A stretch of 64,000 nt of DNA, from positions 34,441,447-34,505,446 of the forward strand of contig NC_063049.1 in the NCBI RefSeq assembly GCF_018812025.1. Reading direction: 5' to 3'. The notes under the pieces are model-generated. The model was given only the letters and a program-made list of their open reading frames with translations. It did no database searches and was not told the origin of the DNA. Below are positions 2,588 to 31,635 of this stretch, in pieces. Source of the stretch: Megalobrama amblycephala. Taxonomy: Eukaryota > Chordata > Actinopteri > Cypriniformes > Xenocyprididae. Numbering within the stretch: the stretch's first letter is position 1; the number at the start of each line of letters is the position of its first letter. The translations under genes and the position numbers were made by a program.

Positions 2588-5500
2588 GCAAGTCCAAATG
2601 CTCATGATTCGTCCTGATTTCACCTCAACTGAGGATAATAGCAAACTATCCACCTTTTTCCCTTCCCCATCTGTCTTTCTTGCTGTTGTTATGCTTCTTC
2701 AGGGTCAATTCTGTCCCTTGGGCACACTGTCCTTTCAAGTGTGCTTTACTGTGTCTCGCACTCATTCGCATGTATCAGTTCACTGTGTGCATGCTAATGG
2801 CTGCACATAATAGCTGTTTCACTAGTCTTAGATCGACTGTTTCTTTGCCTGACTGGAAGGTAATATAGCACTTGTTCTTATGACATGGAGCAAATCATGT
2901 TCCAAAACTTTACCTCATATTATTTATTTATTATTATTTTTTGCACAAGAATGCTCTTAACACAAACCATTTCATCTGACATTCTTTTTATTTTGTCAGA
3001 AGAATTATGACATTACATTATGACTCACATTACCTGTCGTCAGACCAAAACTGTGTAATTAAATTAATATTTTGGCTGTGAGTAAAAGTAATTTTATGAA
3101 GAAATAATGATATAAAGTTATCTTATTTCATGTTATTTTTTATGCTTAAATGTAAAAATATTACATTTTTAACACTGTCATATACCATCAGATTTTGCCC
3201 CAGTACTAAAGAATAAGTTATTTGTCTGACAATTTCAACATCTCATATAGAAATGCTGTAGCCTGACGTGGTCATACTCAATTCTAGTCAGAATATGAGT
3301 CTGATACTGCTCCATTGGGCTTTGATTATGGGGGCGTATTTCAACCGATCCAGGAAAGACCTCAATTGGATAGACCTACAACCAATCAGAGCTACAGAGT
3401 AAGTGACATATGTTGAGCGACGCATAGTTGTCAACAGAACTCTTCTTAGCGACCATCGGGGCCACTGATAAATCAAACTTTTGCCGAATCCTGTAGGAAG
3501 GACGGCAAAGACATCTTTCCCATCGACAAATGCTTGATCGCGGTCCTCTGTTCCTCTTTTAAAATTAATGCGCTGTCGATATCTTCTGTAACGGACGCGA
3601 TGGCGGAATCTACACATCTCAGTTCTTCAACAACAGCCATCATTGTTGTAAACTAATTGACCTTTCGCAAAGACTCGCCCCCCTTAGTTACTGTTGCTTT
3701 GTCCGACAAGCCGTGGCGCTGTCACGCCACACAGAGTGGAGCAAAGAGGAAACTGACAACACATCGACAGACGAGACAGAGCTGGTTACTTATGATGTTA
3801 AACAAAGTCCCAGCTTTCAAACTGTGTAGTTATTTAAAAAATTCAAACAATAAAAACCGTTTTGTGGCTCTTTATTATGTTTTGTGACCATGATCGTGAC
3901 AGATTGCTGTAGCGCCTCAGCTCAAGAGGCTCGTTAACCGATCATCTCTTCCTACTAGTCCATTTATAGCATCAAATAAACATGAATGAACATGAGAATG
4001 AATGTTGTTTCAAACGCGGAAAGACGTCAGTATGCACAATTTTTCAAGTTTAACTCCACCGATGTTAATCTTCTAACTCCTGACTGCTTTGACGGACAAA
4101 ATGGCGGATGCGGCGTTCTGATTGGTTAGATCGCTTGTCAATCAAACTCCCCAAGCGTTCTCTGATGACGTGGGCGGTTATGTAACCGCAGATAGCCTGT
4201 CCATCATCGATTAAAGCCCGCCCTGGCAATTTGATTGGCTCGGCCTTCTGGGAGCCGAGCATAATTACTCCACAATGGATCGAGTCCAGACCGAACTTCC
4301 AGTCCAAAAAATGTTGTGGGCGGGGTTCGGGCTGGCACCCAGGCTAGAAATGCTGGAGAGACTGTTCTAATACAGAAAACTTTCGGAATTATTGGATTAT
4401 ATGCTATATAGCCTTGGGCTGCATTCTTGGATTATTGAAACTTCAAGAATACACACATGCATACATACACAGCCATGCACCAAGGTTGTTTTCCTTTTAT
4501 GTCTAGGACACACTGGTCTTGTAGGTGGTTTGTTTTCCAGGATGAATAGAGTTCAGTTGGGACGATGAGGACAGGCTCTTGATGTAAACACCCCTTGTGT
4601 TTTTAGGTCATTTCATGCAAGCTTGCTGTAATGAGCAGGGTGTAGGCTGTGTGCTGGAGTGACATGTTTATGTCTGGCTTGTGGCAGAGTGCAGCAGTGC
4701 AGAGAAAAGAATCTCGTCAGCCAGAGGAGTGGGAGATTGTGAGGTTAGGGAGACTGCAGTGATAAACTGTAAGGAAGGACATTGGAGTAATTGAGTTTGT
4801 CTATTGAGTTTGCCTTATATGCCTTAGAGACAATGTGTAAGATTTCAATTCTTGAGAAAAATGGTGTGTGAAACAAAATCTAAAAGTAAAGATCTGTTTT
4901 TCTTATACTTTTGAAATGAAAACTTTGACAAAACTCCATATTAAATTATTAAATTTGACAATATTAAATGAGGAAAAATGTTTGGGGCTTGATCGGGAAA
5001 TGATTGGATTGGGAAAAGTGGTTGTTACATTAATTTTAAGAATTATTTTGATAACATTCCTGTTGAGGTTGTATGATTTTTATCTCATTTTAAAATCTTT
5101 TCTCCCAATGAAGTCCATTTATAATGTTAGCAGAGTTGCTTTTCCATCAAAACAGATTTAGATTTTTTTTTAACAATGATGTTTATTAAATATAGTTTAT
5201 AAGATTGGATTTCATATTGTCTTCAAAAGTTAAAGGTACAGTATCAAAAAAAGTTAACACTGAAAATTAGCAATTAAATCATCATCACTTTCTAAGTTTG
5301 TCACTATCTAGTCTTTGTGAGTCCAGTAGACTTTATAGTGATGAATCATCTAGTGAACTTGAAAATGGCATTGGAGTTCATTTTAGGGCACTCAGGACAC
5401 CCTAAGGAGGGCGTGTTGTATAACCTATGCCACGGCCTGAATCTGTCTGGGCCCAAATGCACCCTCACCCCTAGATGACAGCGGGTGTCTCCCCAGCATA

Positions 5501-6697
5501 GTCACTCACAGAACAGGTCTAAGAGACAGTGACATGAGCCACAATCTCTCAAGGTTGAGTGAGCAGGCATGTGGCAGCCACTGCCAGTCTGTGTTTGCCC
5601 AAGGGTGAGACTGGGTAAGAGTGCTGTGACTGTCTGTGCCTTAATGACATAATATGTCTACTGAGGGCCACTGAAGCAGACAGGAACAGTCTGAAAACCC
5701 GGAAACTGGAAAACTCAGAAAGCATGTGCATGTTTAATAATGTCAGAACATTTCATTGGGTTAATACTACATCAGCTCTAGAGTGATCTGTTCAAATCTA
5801 AATTGTTTTTACTTTACAAATATAATTAATGTTTACTTTATAAATTAATTTAATTTTCAGAATGATTTTGATTTTTCCCCACAAAGTCAGTTTTTCCCCC
5901 CCATCAAAACAGACAATATTAAATATTTTATTTTTAATGTAATTAATGATGATATTTTATACAGTATATATGATTTTGATAAATTTACAGATTGTATCAT
6001 TCCTCATTTCTTAAATCTTAGGTCTTATTTTTGCTGTTTTTTTTCTCTCATATAAAGTTTTATGGTCCTCAAAGAAAAATAATATATTTTTTCAAATGGT
6101 CATTAATATACACACAGTATTATGTTAAAATGTAAAGAAAGAAAATGTTACTATTATTATTATTATGCTATTTTGTTACCAGTTAGTGAGGCCAGTTGCA
6201 TAAACTTAGTCACTATATTAAAACTGTGTCTTAAGAACTAGTTTGACCAACTTGCAGTTAACCAAGGGGTAATCAATGTTATTTTTCCAATTCAAATTAC
6301 ACCAATCTACATTTTTATGTAACAGACTTTAAAAAATTAGGACCACTCTTCAAGAAAAACATTAGTGTCTTAACTTTTAAGACTAGTCTAAGTGGTTTAT
6401 GCAACCAACCCCTGAAGAGTAACAAGATCATTTCATCTCATTTTTAAAAAACATTCCCCTGTATGAAGTCCATCTACAGTATAATGATAGTGAAGTTTGC
6501 TTTTGTGCTGCCGTACCTTTAAGACTTCTTTGAAAATTTTATCACTGAAATTTAAGTTCAAAACAAACCATTTTTGCAGCTTAGTTTCAATAAATGCCCT
6601 GAACTTTGGTGAAAGTTTTGAGTTCTGAAAGTTGCAGTATGTTTTTATGTAAAACGATCTCAAATCATCTCAAAGCATTGAGCAAAAATGTGACTAC

Positions 6698-30548: not shown

Positions 30549-31635
30549 TAGCCTGACGTGGTCATACTCAATTCTAGTCAGAATATGAGTCTGATACTGC
30601 TCCATTGGGCTTTGATTATGGGGGCGTATTTCAACCGATCCAGGAAAGACCTCAATTGGATAGACCTACAACCAATCAGAGCTACAGAGTAAGTGACGTA
30701 TGTTGAGCGACGCATAGTTGTCAACAGAACTCTTCTTAGCGACCATGGGGGCCACTGATAAATCAAACTTTTGCCGAATCCCGTAGGAAGGACGGCAAAG
30801 ACATCTTTCCCATCGACAAATGCCTTGATCGCGGTCCTCTGTTCCTCTTTTAAAATTAATGCGCTGTCGATATCTTCTGTAACGGACGCGATGGCGGAAT
30901 CTACACATCTCAGTTCTTCAACAACAGCCATCATTGTTGTAAACTAATTGACCTTTCGCAAAGACTCGCCCCCCTTAGTTACTGTTGCTTTGTCCGACAA
31001 GCCGTGGCGCTGTCACGCCACACAGAGTGGAGCAAAGAGGAAACTGACAACACATCGACAGACGAGACAGAGCTGGTTACTTATGATATTAAACAAAGTC
31101 CCAGCTTTCAAACTGTGTAGTTATTTAAAAAATTCAAACAATAAAAACCGTTTTGTGGCTCTTTAATGTGTTGTGACCATGATCGTGACAGATTGCTGTA
31201 GCGCCTCAGCTCAAGAGGCTCGTTAACCGATCATCTCTTCCTACTAGTCCATTTATAGCATCAAATAAACATGAATGAACATGAGAATGAATGTTGTTTC
31301 AAACGCGGAAAGACGTCAGTATGCACAATTTTTCAAGTTTAACTCCACCGATGTTAATCTTCTAACTCCTGACTGCTTTGACGGACAAAATGGCGGATGC
31401 GGCGTTCTGATTGGTTAGATCGCTTGTCAATCAAACTCCCCAAGCGTTCTCTGATGACGTGGGCGGTTATGTAACCGCAGATAGCCTGTCCATCATCGAT
31501 TAAAGCCCGCCCTGGCAATTTGATTGGCTCGGCCTTCTAGGAGCCGAGCATAATTACTCCACAATGGATCGAGTCCAGACCGAACTTCCAGTCCAAAAAA
31601 TGTTGTGGGCGGGGTTCGGGCTGGCACCCAGGCTA
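30549..31635. mobile_element. RecQ-carrying non-autonomous DNA transposon, copy 2
   Basis: A 1087-bp element with TAGCCTG (30549-30555) and CAGGCTA (31629-31635) ends and a perfect 9-bp target duplication AACAATCAC at 30540-30548 and 31636-31644. It differs from copy 1 at only a handful of positions over its length, so both moved recently. The duplication sequences differ between copies, which rules out a simple segmental duplication. Confidence 0.88.
30731..30934 (-). pseudogene. RecQ-type helicase N-terminal fragment, longer open frame
   Basis: From ATG at 30934 the frame reads MMAVVEELRCVDSAI, then ILKEEQRTAIKAFVDG, KDVFAVLPTGFGKSLIYQ. LKEEQ fits RecQ motif 0 and PTGFGKS is Walker A (motif I). 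After IYQ a one-base loss near 30755 moves the expected APMVAKK into another frame. The rest of the helicase is missing. It is a captured or remnant coding piece, not a functional enzyme. Confidence 0.82.

Follow-up and report, generated by a model that had tools for sequence, protein, structure and literature searches.

In the window analysed here, a 64,000-nt stretch of Megalobrama amblycephala DNA (contig NC_063049.1, positions 34,441,447 to 34,505,446), two copies of one mobile element, A and B, each carry the 5′ piece of a RecQ-type helicase gene. Both copies are quite probably non-autonomous derivatives of a helicase-encoding teleost cut-and-paste DNA transposon, most likely AcademH of the Academ superfamily. 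AcademH membership is likely rather than proven, and we label the copies accordingly, as probable non-autonomous AcademH. The element is an ordinary one, a non-autonomous family of an already known kind. Its features, in window coordinates, are as follows.

3250..3258, no strand: left target site duplication of copy A, GAAATGCTG, perfect repeat
3259..4346, minus strand (that of the helicase fragment): copy A, non-autonomous element, 1088 bp, from alignment
3259..3441, no strand: left-end segment of copy A, counterpart of that of copy B, from alignment and tblastn
3442..3643, minus strand: 5′ piece of a RecQ-type helicase gene in copy A, broken near 3532 and after the Walker A region
3644..4346, no strand: right-end segment of copy A, counterpart of that of copy B, from alignment
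4347..4355, no strand: right target site duplication of copy A, GAAATGCTG, perfect repeat
30540..30548, no strand: left target site duplication of copy B, AACAATCAC, perfect repeat
30549..31635, minus strand (that of the helicase fragment): copy B, non-autonomous element, 1087 bp, from alignment
30549..30731, no strand: left-end segment of copy B, 183 bp, part of it present in 39 of 120 listed protein relatives, from tblastn
30732..30934, minus strand: 5′ piece of a RecQ-type helicase gene in copy B, which begins with a start codon at 30934 and stays in frame for 60 codons, to 30755
30935..31635, no strand: right-end segment of copy B, 701 bp, upstream of the helicase start, part of it present in 9 of 120 listed protein relatives
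31636..31644, no strand: right target site duplication of copy B, AACAATCAC, perfect repeat

Alignment of copies A and B gave 99.17% identity across 1089 columns, with six substitutions, one 1-bp indel and one 2-bp indel. Both copies start with TAGCCTG and end with CAGGCTA, and each is flanked by its own perfect 9-bp direct repeats, GAAATGCTG for A and AACAATCAC for B. By our own arithmetic, an exact 9-mer repeat at fixed boundaries is expected with a chance of ~4^-9 per copy; two distinct 9-mers abutting identical boundaries are not chance. Moreover, the substitutional difference is only 0.55% (6 of ~1086 shared positions), which points to recent movement of the element. A sequence-only reading of this DNA had claimed near-identical copies with these ends, a perfect duplication for each, and two recent copies of a single transposon family; all three claims held. 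With copy A as query (expectation value E ≤ 1e-3), the window gave no third copy. The TAGCCTG that occurs a second time within the right end (4193 and 31482) was considered as a subterminal motif and dropped because it is not kept in relatives: the residues DDGQAI, read over this site in the window, are DDGQMI in seven of eight relatives and DDGQII in the other.

The inverted repeat of the ends is 7 bp only. No longer imperfect terminal inverted repeat (TIR) rose above shuffles when the two 200-bp ends of copy B were compared; the best further inverted match scored 17, and 300 shuffles gave a mean of 16.1 and a maximum of 25. This result bears on membership of the MuDR/MULE superfamily, with the helicase as an accessory gene of that lineage, which we regard as rather doubtful. 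Non-autonomous MuDR/MULE members resemble our copies in duplicating ~9 bp of target: 4-10 bp are given for MuDR and related bacterial elements (available text of PMC10045372), transposase-less elements have been placed in MuDR on account of their TIRs and 9-bp duplications (available text of PMC3627910), and no transposase was seen in the copies. However, MuDR/MULE elements are recognised by long TIRs, and here there are 7 bp with nothing further above shuffles. In addition, the available text of the same two papers reports a RecQ helicase for Academ and contains no such report for MuDR.

In copy B, the helicase piece opens a 118-aa open reading frame (ORF; 30578-30934, minus strand), residues 31-64 of which matched the Pfam DEAD domain (E 2.5e-6). 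Matches to RecQ chains of the PDB were weak and extended across 30-40 residues (best E 0.0017, residues 30-63). We take the matched stretch, residues ~30-64, to be motif 0 and Walker A. An EPTP match on the Walker A stretch (E 0.00056, 20.4 bits against a cut-off of 21) was taken as chance. The helicase frame is open in copy B only, and copy A lacks one base near 3532. In both copies, a one-base frame shift relative to relatives such as P0004 lies just past the Walker A region, after residue 60, so that the 118-aa ORF ends in ~58 residues of non-helicase sequence. Because of this shift in both copies and the base loss in copy A, only the very first part of the helicase can be made from either, and the piece appears to yield no working enzyme. 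The sequence-only reading had placed a minus-strand frame with RecQ motif 0 and Walker A in each copy; a helicase start is indeed found in both, but only copy B has it in an open frame.

The family from which this piece derives was traced through protein relatives. The first 60 residues of copy B are 98% identical to P0003 (56 aa) and 95% identical to P0002 (59 aa), both from Anabarilius grahami, and 83% identical to P0121, a 596-aa putative helicase from Alosa (59 aa). Longer relatives numbered 47 at E ≤ 1e-3, and the best 21 of them, which are named, come from teleosts and amphioxus. As a rule these carry DEAD and Helicase_C domains, as in P0121, P0122 (Nothobranchius), P0123 (Misgurnus), P0125 (Engraulis) and P0126 (amphioxus), and full relatives have ~590 aa. 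P0121 matched WRN, BLM and RecQ chains of the PDB through the helicase core (~340-370 residues, best E ~1e-33). In a tree of 24 chosen proteins, in which six long branches were flagged, deeper joins are unsure and the five human-type RecQs are only partly included, 11 fish and amphioxus helicases formed one group with support of 100/100. A branch of 1.13 changes per column leads to this group, which is separate from the five rows that we treated as host-type RecQ, a vertebrate WRN among them. Viral contigs gave no relative with the 118-aa ORF as query, and a search of them with alignment A1 gave five loci of 20-29% identity; prokaryote genome contigs gave no match with P0121 as query. Fish and amphioxus gene models related to the element's helicase (P0121-P0141) are named ATP-dependent DNA helicase Q1, RecQ-like or RecS, and such models may represent transposon genes that were annotated as belonging to the host. 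One of them, P0140 from Neogobius, also bears PF17919, presumably a reverse-transcriptase-type (retroelement) domain, and is either a misjoined model or a nested retroelement.

Short relatives suggest how the copies arose. A search with the 118-aa ORF gave 204 relatives, and the analysis covered the 120 that were listed; end segments in these were counted by tblastn (E ≤ 0.001) against the 183-bp left segment of copy B, beyond the helicase homology, and against its 701-bp right segment. The left segment was joined to the same helicase start in 39 of the 120, the right segment was present in nine, and two, P0041 and P0068, had both. Three shuffles of both segments gave 0/120 each, and none of the 47 longer proteins carried either the left or the right segment. 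These counts replace a looser one (E ≤ 0.01, targets including helicase sequence) of 45/120 for the left and 11/120 for the right; rows dropped in the stricter count were P0018, P0023, P0076, P0094, P0097 and P0112 (left) and P0042 and P0059 (right). The joint between helicase and left end lies at different residues, namely ~44 in P0034, ~50 in P0066, ~53 in P0080, ~59-61 in P0019 and P0007, 67 in P0004 and 87 in P0013, positions that are blurred by a few residues through local alignment and may also reflect gene-prediction errors. The joint of P0004 is the same as in the window copies. Since one helicase start and one set of ends occur with several joints, the window copies appear to have arisen by internal deletion from a parent in which a full helicase gene runs right to left. 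One relative, P0036, is a fragment of the element family listed under a Candidatus Electrothrix metagenome-assembled genome, on a contig of 1121 bp, and is probably animal DNA in a bacterial bin.

The same data bear on whether an unrelated transposon captured the piece, in the Pack-type manner, from a host RecQ gene (RECQL, BLM, WRN, RECQL4 or RECQL5). Such a capture would explain an element that carries only a fragment, from the start codon onwards, and that transposes as one unit, flanked by duplications of its own. However, the fragment shares 83-98% identity with members of a teleost and amphioxus family that is separate from WRN and the other RecQ rows sampled, and host-gene capture is therefore unlikely. 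The weak match of the fragment to PDB RecQ chains, over 30-40 residues, and the finding of several deletion joints yet a single helicase start and a single set of ends also argue against it. The sequence-only reading had left the origin between an autonomous parent and a captured host gene; joints, tree and identities favour the parent and disfavour the capture.

Conservation of the ends was judged by scanning all 120 listed relatives for terminus readings, that is, through protein predictions rather than DNA. The right-terminus reading A-W-x-P occurred in three (P0040, P0041 and P0073), always as [IL]-A-W-M-P, which matches the translation of TAGCCTGGATGCC, and always preceded by unrelated residues. 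The left-terminus reading [TS]-[TS]-S-G occurred in five: P0019, P0027 and P0029 stop right there, and in P0039 the next residue is Y, which fits CAGGCTA followed by other bases; the fifth is P0026. These readings support conservation of the ends in other family members.

Assignment to AcademH rests on its reported combination of a helicase with duplications of 9-10 bp. Target duplications are 8 bp in hAT, TA in Tc1/mariner and TTAA in both piggyBac and Kolobok. The 9-bp duplications at both copies led us to reject hAT, Tc1/mariner and piggyBac, a misfit that had already been pointed out from the sequence. TTAA is likewise absent at both copies (GAAATGCTG and AACAATCAC), whose 9-bp duplications differ from those of Kolobok. 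KolobokH-like elements, the other reported RecQ-carrying transposons, share the helicase cargo with our copies, and Kolobok is abundant in zebrafish according to a table of PMC4746887; in the available text of PMC9587614, however, KolobokH is said to occur in fungi only, and a RecQ helicase is additionally noted for one Kolobok of a red alga. It is highly improbable that the copies belong to them.

The available text of PMC10045372 gives AcademH a helicase and duplications of 9 or 10 bp, and AcademX duplications of 3-4 bp. Our copies agree with AcademH in duplication length (9 bp in two of two copies) and in an animal host, the latter going by the title of a paper cited in PMC10045372. Of the helicase gene, the copies contain the 5′ piece; full relatives of ~590 aa exist elsewhere, and no complete helicase gene was seen between these ends. 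The RecQ helicase of Academ was mentioned in 2013, citing Kapitonov et al., in a passage of PMC3627910. Academ is also known from teleosts: the repeat table of PMC4746887 lists it for zebrafish, medaka and stickleback and as absent from tetraodon, and PMC6404401 has it in a fish transposable element database. In these surveys, Academ is known from zebrafish, medaka and stickleback at low copy number; the parts available give class counts, without structure or helicase. The sequence-only reading had called helicases rare cargo for cut-and-paste elements; that finds no support here, since the sources available report RecQ helicases in both Academ and Kolobok, and AcademH, which was not considered there, fits the 9-bp duplications.

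Several points weigh against this classification and the deletion model. The copies are ~1.09 kb long with the first ~67 helicase codons only, no transposase was seen within either of them, and they are likened to AcademH by description rather than by sequence. The 120 relatives are for the most part gene predictions, many of them on short contigs, and their counts are of clusters, not of independent insertions. In P0026, the left-terminus reading is followed by T, a misfit to CAGGCTA. Moreover, no Pfam transposase domain was found on the listed helicase proteins, including the best 120 of 217 longer proteins (E ≤ 1e-3) in a search for helicase-transposase fusions, for which only the 7991 candidates sharing most words were scored. 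Among those 120, most of which are unnamed, P0132 is the only named fish or amphioxus family member, and P0204, a sawfish WRN, stands beside it. P0132 itself, an amphioxus gene model, carries fibrinogen and Ig domains and seems to be misjoined.

Because the 11 sampled members group on a branch of 1.13 changes per column and no Pfam transposase domain was listed, the ~590-aa helicase family could instead belong to a separate lineage of helicase-encoding transposons, distinct from AcademH, which may use the transposase of another superfamily or another element. We regard this as rather unlikely.

In accordance with the AcademH assignment, a parent element would encode the full helicase and a separate transposase, with the helicase gene running right to left from a start ~700 bp inside the right end. 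Judging from the behaviour of DDD/E transposases, the enzyme would be supplied in trans by a parent elsewhere, recognise both ends and excise the element, which would then be joined to target cuts staggered by 9 bp. The parent helicase may assist, one possibility being that it opens the ends or the target. In the copies, the helicase piece would be a passenger retained with the right-end region.

Our results offer the end sequences and duplication length as a handle for finding full-length, possibly active helicase-carrying transposons in fish, and an active copy, if found, would allow testing of the helicase's role in transposition. They also suggest that transposon genes, or fragments of these, underlie some of the fish gene predictions that go by the names ATP-dependent DNA helicase Q, RecQ-like or RecS.

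Copy B ends ~2.6 kb upstream of the first of five plus-strand stretches (34269-36087) that match the start of CPS1, as found with an approximate query sequence; nothing seen in the window suggests a role of either copy in this gene. An ORF at 39049-39393 is, we assume, CPS1-like. Two other putative mobile elements were noted. At 17822-19398, inverted repeats of ~138 bp, 86% identical, enclose a 411-codon ORF (17962-19197), which we take to include a Tc1-type transposase, making the whole a presumed Tc1-like element. At 41177-41569 (plus strand) lies a 130-aa ORF, probably a further remnant in truncated form; we take its stretches QDNAPCH and NSPDLNPIEH to mark the DDE end of a Tc1/mariner transposase.
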